Shown one piece after another: positions 6,778 to 39,954 of a stretch of 39,954 nt of DNA. Position numbers and translations under genes: made by a program. Origin of the DNA: a virus. Location: the IMG/VR virus record IMGVR_UViG_3300022658_000326, positions 1-39,954 of that record. One strand, given 5' to 3'. How positions within the stretch are numbered: the stretch's first letter is position 1; each line of letters starts with the position of its first letter. The notes beneath the pieces were generated by a model, which made no database searches, was not told where the DNA came from, and saw only the letters and a list, made by a program, of their open reading frames with translations.

Positions 6778-6918
6778 TCAGCGCCCCCACAGCATGATGC
6801 CCAGGCTGAGCACGATGGTGATGACCGATGCCCAGCGAATGAGACGGTGCTGCAGCCCTGGCTTAGCGGGACGTGCCACCGGGTTGCCCAGGTGGTCGAA
6901 GCACTGTTCGTACCTCAT
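6778..6918 (-). CDS. Tiny single-pass membrane protein
   Basis: A 46-residue ORF. The start is the ATG at 6916-6918, which overlaps the upstream stop by four bases (6915-6918). A longer in-frame start at 7065 would give Arg/Pro-rich shadow sequence. The protein has a soluble N-terminus (MRYEQCFDHLGNPVARP), a basic stretch, and one C-terminal membrane segment (WASVITIVLSLGIMLWG). Small early membrane proteins of phages sometimes inhibit host or superinfecting phage functions, but nothing here identifies a role. Confidence 0.6.
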   Translation of the reverse strand: MRYEQCFDHLGNPVARPAKPGLQHRLIRWASVITIVLSLGIMLWGR

Positions 6919-7397
6919 GCCGCACCTGCCTTGAGGTTGGGCAGGTTGTCCTTGTGGCAGCGGCCTTTGAGGCGCAGGAAGTGTGCCCACAGTTCCATGG
7001 TGTGGCCGGTGCTCTTGCCGAAGGGCACGCCCAGGATGGCATCCAGCAGCACATGGATCTCGCACCAGGTGCGGCGGCTGTCCATGTGGATGACGGTGAT
7101 GGCCGCGTCGTGCAGACCGTCATCCAGGCGGCGCAGATCGGTCAGGTCAAAGGGGAAGCGCTCGCCGTTGTACAGGCCCAGCAGCAAGCGGGCGCAGGTG
7201 CCGCCGCCACCGGTATCGAGCATCGTGCGGGCAGCGTTGTACAGACGCAGAGCGGCGGCTTGCTGCTGCTGGCTGTAGCGGCTGAGGGTTTGTGCGTGTT
7301 GGCGGCTCAGGGCCGTCGCACGCTCCCGGCTGGCTTCGGCCACGTAGTCGTCGTGGCGCTCCTGCCGGAGTTCTTCAAGGGCTTTGTCGGTAAGCAT
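6915..7397 (-). CDS. DUF7673-type protein, first gene of early-left operon
   Basis: A 160-residue protein. I choose the ATG at 7395-7397 because GGAG lies five bases upstream; an in-frame GTG at 7403 has no usable ribosome binding site. The N-terminal third is a charged helix (LEELRQERHDDYVAEASRERA). The core contains GGGGTCARLLLGLYNGERFPFDLTDLR, HDAAITVI and, near the end, LKGRCHKDNLPNL. These phrases match what I remember of the DUF7673 family, which is common in phages and plasmids of Burkholderiales and has no known function. It is the first gene after the operator and promoter region at 7439-7478, so it should be made early. Confidence 0.74.
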   Translation of the reverse strand: MLTDKALEELRQERHDDYVAEASRERATALSRQHAQTLSRYSQQQQAAALRLYNAARTMLDTGGGGTCARLLLGLYNGERFPFDLTDLRRLDDGLHDAAITVIHMDSRRTWCEIHVLLDAILGVPFGKSTGHTMELWAHFLRLKGRCHKDNLPNLKAGAA

Positions 7398-7410
7398 TTC
7401 CACTCCATGG

Positions 7411-7437
7411 CCCGCCTGAAAGTGGCGGGATGGAGCG
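7411..7437 (-). promoter_or_regulatory. Leader hairpin with boxA-like element
   Basis: In the leader of the early-left transcript a boxA-like CGCTCCA (minus strand, 7431-7437) is followed one base later by a perfect 6-bp hairpin, CCCGCC / GGCGGG, with a seven-base loop (7411-7429). The order, boxA then hairpin just inside the first promoter, is that of lambda nut sites. Matching to boxA (CGCTCTTA) is partial, and no N-like arginine-rich protein is recognised. The hairpin also lies about ten bases upstream of the first start codon's ribosome binding site and might instead tune translation. Confidence 0.35.
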
Positions 7438-7438
7438 A

Positions 7439-7467
7439 ATACTAGCGCCGATATTTATTTAATGCAA
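7439..7467 (-). promoter_or_regulatory. Early-left promoter (P_L-like)
   Basis: Read on the minus strand, TTGCAT (7462-7467) and TAGTAT (7439-7444) are separated by 17 bases. This is a plausible sigma-70 promoter aimed at the early-left operon. The first operator-like core (7443-7453) overlaps the -10 box and spacer and the second (7468-7478) abuts the -35 box, so a bound repressor would block it. The -10 box matches the consensus at four of six positions. Confidence 0.5.
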
Positions 7468-7478
7468 TAGGGGCGCTA
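7443..7478. promoter_or_regulatory. Left operator pair (O_L-like)
   Basis: Two 11-bp cores, TAGCGCCGATA (7443-7453) and TAGGGGCGCTA (7468-7478), have centres at 7448 and 7473, exactly 25 bp apart. They match the cores of the right operator array at 8602-8662 and flank the probable P_L promoter. Operator 2 and operator 5 share the extension CTAGGAAT. They are probably bound by the short repressor and the Cro-like protein. Direct binding has not been shown. Confidence 0.65.
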
Positions 7479-7487
7479 GGAATGCTT

Positions 7488-7501
7488 GCAAAATATTTTG
7501 C
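7488..7501. repeat. 14-bp perfect palindrome after the accessory gene
   Basis: GCAAAATATTTTGC is a perfect palindrome between the exported-protein gene (stop at 7527) and the left operators. It could be a protein-binding site or a weak termination element that limits read-through from the repressor transcript into the early-left operon, which runs in the same direction. There is no T-run on the minus-strand transcript, so a canonical terminator is unlikely. Confidence 0.4.
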
Positions 7502-7526
7502 TGGATGTCGTGTTATGGCAGCTTGC

Positions 7527-8135
7527 TCATAGTTGTCGGGTGCTAGTGTCAGCCGTCTGAAGCCAGCTTTTCCTCAATGCCGTTGCTTCAGGTAGATCGA
7601 TGTAGACCTCGCCCGTTTCGATCTTTGTAGTAATCCCGTCAAATTTCACACGCAAGTTCGTCAGCTCCCAAGTGGCGCTTGTTGAGTTGAAGCTCGCTCC
7701 CATTGCGTTCTGCATCAACCGGTTTGAAGTGCTGGTGGGTTGCCCATATTTCTGCGTCAGCTGGCTGAGTGCAAGTTCTTGTGCGGCGGCTCCAGGTGTG
7801 AGGAAGTGAAAGCCGACAAGGTTGCCGTTTATTTCGAGGGGAAAAGCGGTCCAATTTTTGACAATCGGCGGAGCTTCGTCACGGCCAAAAATGATGCGAC
7901 GAACAGGTATCTTGTACCCGTTGAGCGGTCCGGCATCTTGCACGCAAGTTGATCGGGGAATGACGTCATACATCTTGCTTCCAGCTACAACCTTGAATGG
8001 ACACTCACTAAGCGTTAGAGGTTTGCCAAGTTCAAAGCCAAATACACTGTTCTGTGCATTGCTGGCGAGCGCTGTTAGGCACAGCACCATAGAAGTTGTG
8101 GCTATCCGAAAAGTAGGCCAGATGTTGTTTGTCAT
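7527..8135 (-). CDS. Exported accessory protein in the lambda rex position
   Basis: A 202-residue protein starting at the ATG at 8133-8135 (GAG nine bases upstream). Residues 1-28 form a signal peptide: a short polar start, a hydrophobic core (TTSMVLCLTALA) and a probable cleavage after ASNA. The mature part begins with a VFGFELGKPLTLSECPF phrase and is beta-rich with two or three Cys. I do not recognise the family. The gene lies 42 bases after the repressor on the same strand and before the left operators, where lambda has rexAB, so it is probably expressed from the prophage. Sampled GC is near 47%, lower than the phage average of about 60%, which suggests separate acquisition. Confidence 0.72.
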   Translation of the reverse strand: MTNNIWPTFRIATTSMVLCLTALASNAQNSVFGFELGKPLTLSECPFKVVAGSKMYDVIPRSTCVQDAGPLNGYKIPVRRIIFGRDEAPPIVKNWTAFPLEINGNLVGFHFLTPGAAAQELALSQLTQKYGQPTSTSNRLMQNAMGASFNSTSATWELTNLRVKFDGITTKIETGEVYIDLPEATALRKSWLQTADTSTRQL

Positions 8136-8177
8136 ATCAATCTCGGCTGTAGGCAAGGTAAAGTTTGAAGGGGAGCT

Positions 8178-8591
8178 TCAGCTGTACGTGCCGTTTGCTT
8201 TAAGCGCTTGCTCCAGCGCTTCAATTTCGTCTTGCATTCGCACCTGTGCTTTGAAGCGAAGGGCGGGCGGCAGTGCTTCGTAGCGCTCGCGGTCTACAAG
8301 TTCAAATGGCCAACTGGACTCCAACGCCGCCAGGCGGGGGCTGAAGTCCGAGATCATGCAGTTGAGGCCCTTGGCGAAACCCTTGGCGGCCTTGAGGCTC
8401 AAGGCGGTATGTCCACTTAGAAAGAAGCCCACTACGGCTTGACCACCAATGCCAAATTCGGCGCCAAAGGCCCCTTGCGTGTGTAACTTGACGGCCTTCC
8501 GACTCTCATAGGTGGAATCCCATATTTCCTTTAACCGACGTGCCTCCTCCCGGTGTTCGTCAGTGACCTTCCCTCGTTTGCTATCTGTCAT
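8178..8591 (-). CDS. Short CI-type repressor without peptidase domain
   Basis: A 137-residue protein with an N-terminal helix-turn-helix region. The stretch EEARRLKEIWDSTYESRK is the usual lead helix of LexA/CI-type repressors in Burkholderiales phages, and TQGAFGAEFGIGGQAVVGFFLSGHTALSLKAAKGFAKGL (residues about 38-76) is the HTH and its support helix, followed by ISDFSPRLAAL. Normally an S24 auto-cleavage domain of about 120 residues follows. Here the protein ends in a short acidic helix with no Ser-Lys catalytic pattern. It is divergent from the Cro-like gene across three operators, as expected for an immunity repressor. How it is inactivated on induction is not obvious from this region. 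Confidence 0.78.
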   Translation of the reverse strand: MTDSKRGKVTDEHREEARRLKEIWDSTYESRKAVKLHTQGAFGAEFGIGGQAVVGFFLSGHTALSLKAAKGFAKGLNCMISDFSPRLAALESSWPFELVDRERYEALPPALRFKAQVRMQDEIEALEQALKANGTYS

Positions 8592-8601
8592 GGTGCAACG
8601 T

Positions 8602-8662
8602 TAGCGGCGCTAGTAATCATTGCAACTAGCGGCGATATTGATGTATATTCCTAGTGCCACTA
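8602..8662. promoter_or_regulatory. Right operator array of three sites (O_R-like)
   Basis: Three 11-bp cores lie between the repressor and the Cro-like gene: TAGCGGCGCTA (8602-8612), TAGCGGCGATA (8627-8637) and TAGTGCCACTA (8652-8662). Their centres are at 8607, 8632 and 8657, so the spacing is exactly 25 bp twice. The first and last are perfect inverted repeats around one base; the second has one mismatch. The layout copies lambda O_R1-O_R3 in number and place, with a different spacing and sequence. Confidence 0.72.
8620..8649 (+). promoter_or_regulatory. Early-right promoter (P_R-like)
   Basis: TTGCAA (8620-8625) and TATATT (8644-8649) are separated by 18 bases and point toward the Cro-like gene. 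The middle operator core (8627-8637) lies within the spacer, so repressor binding would occlude polymerase. The right-hand operator overlaps the start region and the AGGA ribosome binding site candidate (8662-8665). Confidence 0.55.
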
Positions 8663-8675
8663 GGAATTTCATGCA

Positions 8676-8942
8676 ATGAACACCATCAAATCCATCCGAA
8701 CCCGCCTTGGCATCACCCAGGCCGCCCTGGCCGAGGGTATCGGTTGCACACAGGGCAATGTGGGGCATTACGAAAACAAGGGACAGACCATCCCCCCTGA
8801 CGTTGCCAAGCGCCTGATTGCCTTTGCTGCTCAGCGTGGCATGGCGCTCACGTATGACGATGTTTATGGGCCCATTGAAGCCCCTGCCACCGCCGAATGC
8901 GCGCAGGCAGCTGCTGAAAACGTAGCAGCCCAAGGTGCCTGA
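8676..8942 (+). CDS. Cro-like / XRE-family helix-turn-helix regulator
   Basis: An 88-residue protein with an XRE-type helix-turn-helix: TIKSIRTRLGITQAALAEGIGCTQGNVGHYENKGQTIPPDVAKRLI (residues 3-48). The rest is a helical extension that ends in an Ala-rich tail. It is the first gene rightward of the three operators and divergent from the repressor, the usual place of cro. The start ATG at 8676 is preceded by AGGA inside the last operator; a nearer ATG at 8671 is followed by a stop. It probably represses the early promoters during lytic growth. Cro and DnaT/YdaS-type regulators look alike at this length, so the exact subfamily is uncertain. Confidence 0.75.
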   Translation: MNTIKSIRTRLGITQAALAEGIGCTQGNVGHYENKGQTIPPDVAKRLIAFAAQRGMALTYDDVYGPIEAPATAECAQAAAENVAAQGA

Positions 8943-9076: not shown

Positions 9077-9092
9077 TTTTTCTTGCTCGGGT

Positions 9093-9122
9093 GATTTGCA
9101 TGGTGCAAATCGTCCTTTTTTT
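9093..9122 (+). terminator. Hairpin with T-run in early-right leader
   Basis: A perfect 8-bp inverted repeat GATTTGCA / TGCAAATC (9093-9100, 9104-9111) with a 3-base loop is followed by GTCC and seven T (9116-9122). This looks like a Rho-independent terminator, weak because the stem is AT-rich and the T-run begins four bases after it. It would end or attenuate transcription after the Cro-like gene, comparable in place to lambda tR1. Confidence 0.5.
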
Positions 9123-9168: not shown

Positions 9169-9540
9169 ATGAACCAAGTTTCTCTCCCCGTTGAAATCCG
9201 CCCTGAAGAGGTTGCGCGCAAACAGTCGCTGGGCGATGCGCTGCAGATGTGCGCCGAGCTGGCGGGATTCAGTTTGGACAAGGAATTGCAACAGCGGCTG
9301 GGGGTAGACAAGGCGCAATTCAGCCGGTGGACGTCAGGCACCGAGGGAATCGTGTGGCCCAAGTTTGTGAAGCTGATGGACACCTGCGGCAACGACGCCC
9401 CGTTGATGTGGATGCTGCACCAGCGAGGGTATGACTTGCATTCGATGCGCAAGCTGGAGAGCGAGACTGAAAAGGTCAACCGGCAGCTGCGGGAAGAAAA
9501 CGCCGCCCTGCGCCGCGTCTTGATGGGGGGTGCCAAGTGA
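9169..9540 (+). CDS. Helix-turn-helix and coiled-coil regulator, CII position
   Basis: A 123-residue protein starting at the ATG at 9169 (GAGG four bases upstream); an earlier in-frame codon at 9157 lacks such a site. Residues about 20-60 give an HTH-like region (LGDALQMCAELAGFSLDKEL ... GVDKAQFSRWTSGTEGIVWPKF), and the last 30 residues form a heptad-rich helix (MRKLESETEKVNRQLREENAALRRVL), a probable leucine-zipper dimerisation segment. It sits after the Cro-like gene and the terminator-like hairpin, the place lambda uses for cII, so it may activate lysogeny promoters. Function is inferred from position only. Confidence 0.62.
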   Translation: MNQVSLPVEIRPEEVARKQSLGDALQMCAELAGFSLDKELQQRLGVDKAQFSRWTSGTEGIVWPKFVKLMDTCGNDAPLMWMLHQRGYDLHSMRKLESETEKVNRQLREENAALRRVLMGGAK

Positions 9541-36910: not shown

Positions 36911-36945
36911 AGCCCTCCATCCCTCACGGGGTGGGGGGCTTTTTT
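36911..36945 (+). terminator. Terminator at the phage right end, overlapping the integrase end
   Basis: AGCCCTCCATCCC (36911-36923) pairs with GGGGTGGGGGGCT (36928-36940), 13 pairs with two G-U, around a loop of four bases (36924-36927), followed by six T (36940-36945). It terminates rightward transcription from the methylase and small-protein genes. The 3' half lies in the last codons of the minus-strand integrase gene, so the hairpin also shapes the end of that transcript. Confidence 0.72.
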
Positions 36946-38570
36946 GCGTTTGTGGGCTGCTCAAGGCTCTCCGACATGATCAGCTGGCCGTCGCGCCCGA
37001 TCCGCAGCAGCCTGGCTGTGCCGCCCTTGGCCAGCAGCATCATGTCCATAGGGCCCTTGTCTTCTGTCGGCCGCACACCACGCTGATAGATCACGATCCG
37101 CTCGAACGTGTCGGCCACCAGCTGGCGGGTCTGCAGGCGTGCGTCGTAGTCTTGGGCTTCCACGCCGTCCACCAGGCGCTTCCATTCCTCATCGGTGCCC
37201 TTGATGTCAGTGCGGGCCGTTGCGGCCAGATCGCGCTCTGCCGCCTGGACAACCTCCTGCAGCCGCTGCTGCTCGGCTTCCAGCTCACGGGCTCGCTTGG
37301 CGAAGGTGAGAGGCACGCCGTCCTCGCTGCTGGCCAGCATGGCATCGGTCAGGCGCTCCAACTTGGTAGCCACGTCTGCCAGCTGCTGCCTGGCGTGCGT
37401 CAGAGCTGCCAGCGGGCCTGCAGAGCGATCCGCGCCGTACAGCGCCTGCAGGTTGACGATGTCCGAGCAGTAGGTCATCAGAGCGCGCTCAAAGGGGGCG
37501 ACCGACACCGAGCCGCTGACCTGGCACCCGCCGTGCGAGTAGCTGGTGCAGTGCAGACGTCTGTGCCCGTCCTGGATGCGCCCCTGTGCATCCCGATTGC
37601 GGGTGCCGATGTTTTGCCCCACCATGGCGCGCCCGCAATATCCACAGACTGTGATGCCCAAGCCGGTCAGGATGTGTGGTACCGGTCCCTTAGCCTTGCG
37701 CCGCCCACGGCCGTTGTTGGCCAGCTGCAGGCCGTCCCATTCGGCCGTGGTCAGCAGAGCAGGGTAGTAGCCCGGCAGCTGGTAGCTTTCAGCTCCGAGG
37801 GTCAGCTCCTTTTCCCCGATCAGTGCCCGTTGCTTGACCAGGCGGTAGATCTGCAGCGCCTGTGGACCGCGCCCGGTGAGCGATAAATTCTGCTCGGTCA
37901 GGCGCTCGATGATCTTGGTGGCACCGTAGCCCATCAAATACAGGCGCAGGCCTTCATGCACGGCCGCCACCCGCTCGGGTATTTCCTCCCACTTGCCGTC
38001 CACCAGGCGCAGCCACACCGGGTCTTTGCCGTTGCGGATGAGGCCACGGTAGGTGCCAGCGATCCAGCCCTCGCACTGTCGCCGGATGCTGGCCAGCACC
38101 CGTTTGCTCTTCGTGTCGCTCTCTTCGTGGGCGCGGATCATGACCAGGAGCGAATACACCAGATCCATCGGGTTGGCCTTGAGCCGCTCCCGGCTGTATT
38201 CCTTGCCATCGCTGGCGGTGACCACTGCGATGCCAGCATTTACAATCTGGGCCAATTGGGCCTGCGCCTGGATCGGCTCAGCCCGTGAGAGGCGGTCGAG
38301 GCCTTCCACCACCAGAACCGAGCCCTGTGGTATCCGGCCCTCTTCGACCGCTGCCAGAAAGACGCCCAGCGCACCGGATTTCACGTGTCGCTGGTGATAG
38401 GCCGACAAGCCCTCATCCCGCATCGATAGTGATTCGTCCAGGAGTAGGCCATGTTCGGCAGCCCATTTGGCAGCGTATGCCGCCTGGCGTTCGCTGCTGT
38501 GGCCCGTGGCCTGGCGCGGATCACTGAACCGCGTATAGCTGTAAACAAGACCTGTCAAACTACACCCCAT
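36924..38570 (-). CDS. Large serine recombinase (integrase)
   Basis: A 548-residue protein if started at the ATG at 38568-38570. A longer frame to 38651 exists but those 27 residues are antisense to rimO. The resolvase domain begins [22 protein letters not shown] with the likely nucleophile Ser16, and has [17 protein letters not shown] recombinase domain follows (about 160-300), then a zinc ribbon with [10 protein letters not shown] and [10 protein letters not shown], and a coiled coil (about 430-510). Such enzymes join attP and attB with short cores and do not need host factors for integration. The start has no good Shine-Dalgarno site. Confidence 0.9.
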
Positions 38571-38615
38571 GAACGAAATACAAGAAAAAATCCCGCGTAT
38601 AGGTATGGTATCCCT
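38568..38615. other. Probable right attachment junction (attR) at the rimO 5' end
   Basis: The integrase start (CAT, 38568-38570) and the rimO start (ATG, 38569-38571) overlap in CATG. The first conserved rimO residues begin near residue 9 ([13 protein letters not shown]), so the crossover should lie in the variable first nine codons or just upstream. Serine recombinase cores are short, so the exact core cannot be located without the left end. No matching repeat was found elsewhere in this window. Confidence 0.45.
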
Positions 38616-39954
38616 AGGTTGTCCCAAGGCGCTGACCGACTCTGAACTCATATTGACCCAGCTTAGTGCGGAGGGTTACCAGACATCCAAGACCTTTCAG
38701 GGGGCGGATTTGGTCATCGTCAACACTTGCGGGTTTATTGACGATGCGGTGAAGGAGAGTCTGGACACCATCGGCGAGGCGCTTGCTGAAAACGGGCGCG
38801 TGATTGTGACTGGGTGTCTTGGTGCGAAAACCACTGAGGGTGGCGACAACATGGTTCGTCAGATGCATCCCAAGGTGTTGGCCGTTACAGGGCCGCATGC
38901 AACCCAGGAAGTAATGGATGCGGTACACCTGAATTTGCCCAAGCCGCATGATCCCTTTTTAGACTTGGTGCCGCAATCATTCGGTGTGGCGGGTGTCAAA
39001 CTTACGCCGCGTCATTACGCGTATTTGAAAATCAGCGAAGGTTGTAACCACCGTTGCACGTTCTGCATTATTCCCAGCATGCGCGGGGATTTGGTGTCGC
39101 GCCCCATTGGCGATGTGCTGACCGAAGCGCGGGCTTTGTTTGAAGGTGGCGTCAAAGAATTGTTGGTCATCAGCCAGGATACCTCGGCTTATGGCGTGGA
39201 TGTGAAATACCGCACCGGCTTCTGGGATGGCAAACCGGTCAAGACGCGGATGCTGGAGCTGGTGCAGACCCTGGGCGAAATTGCGGAGCCTTATGGTGCC
39301 TGGGTTCGGTTGCATTACGTATACCCCTATCCGACTGTGGATGAAATAGTTCCCTTGATGGCAACAGGTCGGGTACTGCCTTACCTGGATGTTCCTTTGC
39401 AGCACAGTCACCCTGATGTGCTGCGACGCATGAAGCGCCCTGCCAGTGGTGAAAAAAATCTGGAGCGCTTGCAAAAGTGGCGTGAGGCCTGCCCTGAATT
39501 GGTGGTGCGGAGCACCTTTATCGCGGGCTTCCCCGGAGAGACTGAAGAAGAGTTCGAGCACTTGCTGGATTTTGTGCGAGAGGCTCAGATCGACCGCGCC
39601 GGTTGCTTTGCATACAGCGCAGTGAATGGTGCTACCGCCAATGATTTGCCGGGAATGTTGCCGTTGGAAGTTCGCGAGGAGCGTCGCGCGCGATTCATGC
39701 AAGTTGCCGAGGAGGTTTCTGCTGCACGCTTGCAGCGTAGAGTGGGCTCCGTCATGCAGGTCCTGGTGGATTCGGCCCCGGCCTTGGGACGCAAAGGTGG
39801 TGTCGGTCGTAGCTACGCAGATGCACCTGAGATCGACGGCGTAGTGCGCTTGCTTCCGCCAGAAAAAATCAGCAAGACACTCAAGGTGGGAGAGTTCACC
39901 AAGGCGCGCATTGTGAGTGCTCAAGGTCACGATCTGGTGGCGCAGCCCATTTAA
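38569..39954 (+). CDS. rimO: Ribosomal protein S12 methylthiotransferase RimO (host gene)
   Basis: A 461-residue radical-SAM enzyme. It adds a methylthio group to an aspartate of ribosomal protein S12. The N-terminal cluster-binding domain has Cys18 (SLGCPKA), Cys54 (NTCGF) and Cys83 (TGCLGAK). The radical-SAM motif CNHRCTFC gives Cys159, Cys163 and Cys166. The C-terminal TRAM domain is complete ([29 protein letters not shown] ... GHDLVAQPI). The frame is intact and the length normal, so prophage insertion has not destroyed the enzyme. Its native promoter is replaced by phage DNA, and no ribosome binding site is seen before the ATG at 38569, so expression in the lysogen may be changed. Confidence 0.94.

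Follow-up and report, generated by a model that had tools for sequence, protein, structure and literature searches.

Operator phasing in a probable lambda-type phage immunity region and its likely origin in promoter geometry

Why should five operator-like sites, in two groups 1.1 kb apart, keep exactly the same distance from their neighbours? A sequence-only reading of the window (the whole 39,954-nt stretch of viral DNA analysed here, IMG/VR record IMGVR_UViG_3300022658_000326) had taken the 25-bp spacing of these sites as direct evidence of cooperative binding. We consider it probable that the sites belong to a lambda-type switch, in the immunity region of a temperate tailed phage, and that their phasing came from fusing operator pairs to promoters.

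Genes and operator cores of the window

The window encodes terminase, portal, tape measure, tail, endolysin and primase together with a ParB-like protein and a serine integrase, a gene set that points to a temperate tailed phage or prophage. Among named phages, near DNA matches were limited to a single 70-bp match inside the DUF7673 gene. The serine integrase ORF (36924-38651) and the first part of a rimO-like gene (38569-39954, identified by eye) overlap, which suggests that attachment takes place at the 5' end of a host rimO or close to it. Repressor and Cro-like genes are divergently oriented with an operator array between them, and the genes around the two groups of sites are:

6915-7397, minus strand: DUF7673 gene, opening the leftward operon (ATG at 7397 as probable start; GTG 7403 in the ORF list)
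7527-8156, minus strand: gene between repressor and O_L; possible exported protein
8178-8591, minus strand: CI-like repressor, 137 aa; lambda-CI-type N-terminal domain and short helical tail, without an S24 domain
8676-8942, plus strand: Cro-like HTH_3 protein, 88 aa (HTH_3, E 4e-8)

Downstream of cro, a terminator-like hairpin with a T run (similar numbers occur in shuffles) lies at 9089-9115 and is possibly tR1-like, and a second HTH gene (9187-9537) shows weak matches to CII-like families (E about 0.002).

Direct reading confirmed the five centres that had been proposed, with neighbour distances of 25, 25 and 25 bp:

7443-7453 (centre 7448), no strand: O_L1 core, TAGCGCCGATA; its end overlaps the P_L -10, and the near relative L034 has an equivalent pair
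7468-7478 (centre 7473), no strand: O_L2 core, TAGGGGCGCTA; adjoins the P_L -35
8602-8612 (centre 8607), no strand: O_R3 core, TAGCGGCGCTA; overlaps the predicted P_RM -10
8627-8637 (centre 8632), no strand: O_R2 core, TAGCGGCGATA; 41 bp upstream of the repressor start codon
8652-8662 (centre 8657), no strand: O_R1 core, TAGTGCCACTA; highest symmetry of the five sites

All five are 11-bp near-palindromes. Over 19 bp, O_R1 is symmetric at 9 of 9 pairs, and the other four are partial palindromes (4 or 5 of 9). The core type TAGYGSCRCTA, under which the sites had been grouped, holds exactly for two of them and with one mismatch for each of the other three. Three O_R sites and the O_L sites share this core, with two sites rather than three at O_L, where the window holds a single core pair and no further partner within 35 bp.

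A scan of the window with a weight matrix, as the sequence-only reading had proposed, gave a divided outcome. The matrix was built from relatives only, the score of the weakest of the five sites served as cut-off and shuffles as control. Single cores reached the cut-off at 10 positions against 6.5 expected, which is not significant alone, whereas core pairs at exactly 25 bp were seen 3 times against 0.005 per shuffle. Since scores of the weakest site arise about 6.5 times per window by chance, the single-core scan was dropped as proof of operators. Matches within 60 bp of one another were solely the five operator sites. A chance cluster of GC-rich palindromes near two promoters would agree with equal-scoring single cores not being rare in the window, but it is exceedingly improbable in view of the three exact 25-bp pairs and of an array that is kept in diverged relatives with altered core sequence.

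The 137-aa protein has no match in Pfam and is predicted to be the repressor from its sequence and fold. Its family profile matches lambda CI (1rio) with an E value of 7e-12, and its predicted structure (mean pLDDT 86.7) was aligned by Foldseek to the lambda CI N-terminal domain with a TM to target of 0.77-0.83. A CI-type N-terminal DNA-binding domain is present by profile and predicted fold, and this domain is 42% identical to the annotated prophage repressors of HK140 and mEpX2. The S24 autocleavage and oligomerisation domain, present in some relatives, is absent from the window repressor, whose length leaves no room for it; in the tail, a long helix is predicted for residues 109-132. If the cores bound Cro or another phage regulator only, and the 137-aa protein were not the lysogenic repressor, the missing Pfam match would fit. 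We regard this as improbable, because sequence and fold both liken the N-terminal domain to that of lambda CI, and because the gene, in relatives too, is divergent from a cro-like gene, with the array separating the two. Comparing recognition helix and core by eye gave no simple rule: L048 with a GC core and L043 with an AT core share NQSAVGQFL.

With CI-like and Cro-like flanking genes and a 2+3 array that recurs in relatives, the earlier assignment of the sites to O_L and O_R was borne out, and a lambda-type lysis/lysogeny switch very probably uses the five cores as its operators.

Spacing and promoters in relatives

Relatives were gathered by scans with both the repressor and the Cro-like protein, and removal of near copies gave 28 distinct arrays. 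Arrays L036, L037, L046 and L052 were set by hand, and the counts exclude L054-L059 and L062 (different Cro) as well as the enterobacterial phages L069, L070, L072 and L073. The 3+2 operator layout recurs in the 28 distinct relatives with 25 bp as the commonest spacing, and the O_R triple is kept while the core drifts (TAGCGGCGCTA, CAGCGGCGCTG, TAGCATTGCTA, TAGTCGGACTG). Of the 28 arrays, 19 have a spacing of 25 bp between O2 and O1 (24 in three, 26 in three, 29 in two and 33 in one); between O3 and O2, the spacing is 25 bp in 14 of 26 (26 in eight, 23 in two and 19 in two). An O_L pair was found in 19 of the 25 loci with enough flank (1.05 expected), with 17 pairs at 25 bp (0.75 expected), at a distance of about 0.7 to 3 kb from O_R.

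Nearly all relatives have a TTGACA-like hexamer whose first base directly follows the upstream core; a second hexamer, TAGTAT/TACTAT-like, shares its first two bases with the end of the downstream core. A -35 right after the upstream core, a 17-bp spacer and a -10 on the last two core bases add up to 6 + 17 + 2 = 25. When 52 promoter-flanking pairs were scored with no spacer preference (13-24 allowed), the promoter spacer was 16-18 bp in 50 and exactly 17 in 40 of them, at operator spacings from 24 to 33. Pairs with an operator spacing of 28, 29 or 33 keep a promoter gap of 17-18 bp, with one hexamer shifted in register against its core; the related loci L067 and L068, for instance, have 29 bp between O2 and O1 of O_R and 28 bp at O_L with the gap still at 17-18 bp. 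Counting against the promoter explanation, the promoter spacer shifts along by one base in several pairs at spacing 24 or 26. Every 25-bp interval in the family holds a promoter, so that none is promoter-free and could serve to tell the two causes apart. In a homology-free scan of IMG/VR over spacings 20-30, all 16 of 16 distinct 25-bp pairs had a -35-like start just past a core. Spacing 21 in the same scan was rejected as a candidate: it stemmed largely from tandem repeats within single contigs (L080, L104), and 26 of its 30 pairs were not promoter-linked.

The promoters of the window, all consensus matches and not mapped starts, are:

7439-7444, minus strand: P_L -10, TAGTAT; its TA is common to the O_L1 core
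7462-7467, minus strand: P_L -35, TTGCAT; 17-bp spacer to the -10
8598-8603, minus strand: predicted P_RM -10, TAACGT (weak); 6 nt before the repressor ATG
8620-8625, minus strand: predicted P_RM -35, TTGCAA; spacer 16; a palindromic hexamer, so possibly a plus-strand -35 too
8638-8643, plus strand: P_R -35 in the family register, TTGATG
8644-8649, plus strand: alternative P_R -10, TATATT; spacer 18 to TTGCAA at 8620-8625
8661-8666, plus strand: P_R -10 in the family register, TAGGAA (degenerate)

P_L is clear and, as TTGCAT-17-TAGTAT, stands exactly in the family register; P_RM is weak, and P_R has two candidate readings. The family register gives TAGGAA as the P_R -10 both in the window and in L034, its near copy, while TTGCAA-18-TATATT (8620-8649) is closer to consensus and would place O_R2 inside the spacer. 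The fit of the window P_R to the family register is not clean, and either candidate may be the promoter in use.

Two further elements were observed near P_L. An inverted repeat, CCCGCC-ACTTTCA-GGCGGG, lies within the predicted P_L leader (7409-7427). A perfect 14-bp palindrome, GCAAAATATTTTGC (7488-7501), about 21 bp upstream of O_L2 and unlike the operators in sequence, is possibly the site of another regulator or an UP-like element; by eye, L034 has no counterpart at the same place.

The start codon of cro follows the family-register -10 hexamer by 4-10 nt, mostly 6 or 7, in 28 of 28 arrays, which predicts leaderless messages for most cro genes of the family. The repressor ATG of the window likewise lies 6 nt past its weak -10, TAACGT.

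In the switch that we propose, the short CI-like repressor (8591-8178) and the Cro-like protein (8676-8942) would compete for the three O_R and two O_L sites. Occupied O_L sites would block P_L, occupation of O_R1 and O_R2 would block P_R, and occupation of O_R3 would block P_RM. The 25-bp phasing would then result from the fusion of each operator pair to a promoter, and we infer promoter geometry rather than cooperativity as its cause.

Cooperativity, looping and induction

Alternatively, selection could keep the spacing so that, as in lambda, repressor or Cro dimers on adjacent sites bind cooperatively at short range, together with looping between O_L and O_R. Such selection would suit a spacing near lambda's 23-24 bp, a figure given earlier that agrees with the annotated lambda centres (23 and 24 bp at O_R, 24 and 20 at O_L). 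Relatives with an S24 domain and the same array exist, and the predicted long tail helix (residues 109-132) could oligomerise. In lambda CI, cooperativity and looping depend on the S24 C-terminal domain, which the window repressor lacks. The same modal spacing is found in 12 S24-less and 13 S24-bearing relatives, classed by Pfam for 18 proteins and by sequence reading for the rest. Across spacing variants it is the promoter spacer, not the operator spacing, that is conserved, and 25 bp corresponds to about 2.4 helical turns, so that neighbouring sites would not lie on one face. Selection for cooperativity is in our view unlikely, though it retains some weight.

The repressor of phage 933W, which acts on five operators without an O_L3, was reported to be non-cooperative, and the repressor of another phage in the 933W group binds cooperatively (PMC3317979, PMC5977221). 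Because S24-less and S24-bearing relatives have the same spacing and repressors of the 933W group differ, the layout alone does not decide cooperativity. We find no support for reading the exact spacing as direct evidence of cooperativity: in relatives the spacing follows the promoter, and both the missing S24 domain and the 933W repressor speak against it. O_L and O_R, 1.1 kb apart, may form a loop.

The lack of an S24 domain also makes RecA-stimulated self-cleavage an unlikely route of induction. An antirepressor, as in Gifsy phages, would be our guess by analogy. The window holds no exact CTGTN8ACAG LexA box and nothing similar above chance. Lambda CI contacts sigma at P_RM through E34 and D38; in our alignment, the equivalent residues of the window repressor read G and A, and we do not assume lambda-style autoactivation of P_RM for this reason.

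The proposed window switch among known phages

The window resembles lambda in its divergent CI and Cro genes, its three O_R sites and the CI-type N-terminal domain. The window P_L, like P_R and P_L of lambda, has a 17-bp spacer between a -35 that overlaps or adjoins one operator and a -10 that overlaps its neighbour. At the lambda P_R the plan is tighter by one base, with centres 24 apart: the end of OR2 is overlapped by TTGACT and that of OR1 by GATAAT, at a spacer of 17. The lambda OL2-OL3 interval, which holds no promoter, measures 20 bp. The window differs from lambda in its spacing (25 bp against 23/24 bp), in having two O_L sites instead of three, in a different core of 11 bp and in a repressor without the S24 C-terminal domain.

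Phage 933W shares the five operators, two at O_L and three at O_R with no O_L3 (PMC3317979, PMC5977221), a likeness of operator layout; its repressor was measured as non-cooperative. The Gifsy-type prophage repressors GfoR and GtgR stay uncleaved during induction (PMC3121763). The 137-aa window repressor, without an autocleavage domain, should not self-cleave either, a likeness in lack of cleavage; as a possible difference from the Gifsy-type systems, the window has no exact CTGTN8ACAG SOS box and no antirepressor was identified. In the telomere phage PY54, leaderless cI and cro mRNAs were mapped by RACE (PMC4488713). Leaderless messages are likewise predicted for most relatives of the window family, and for cro this appears to be family-wide, a feature already known from PY54; PY54 Cro, however, binds a single operator, whereas the window has a 3+2 array. 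The window switch is new as a member of the known lambda type, with its spacing reinterpreted.

Regular operator spacing is easily taken for cooperativity, and the relatives allow promoter spacing and operator spacing to be told apart; the quantity that stays constant across them is the promoter spacing. For this widespread CI/Cro family as a whole, we propose tentatively, and with slightly less than even confidence, that the 17-bp spacer of sigma-70 promoters and not cooperativity fixes the spacing, and that some lineages, the window included, lost or never had the S24 domain yet keep the array. These would be non-cooperative lambda-type switches without induction by repressor cleavage. Otherwise similar arrays occur in relatives with and without S24, a natural experiment that can show what a lambda-type switch gains from cooperativity.
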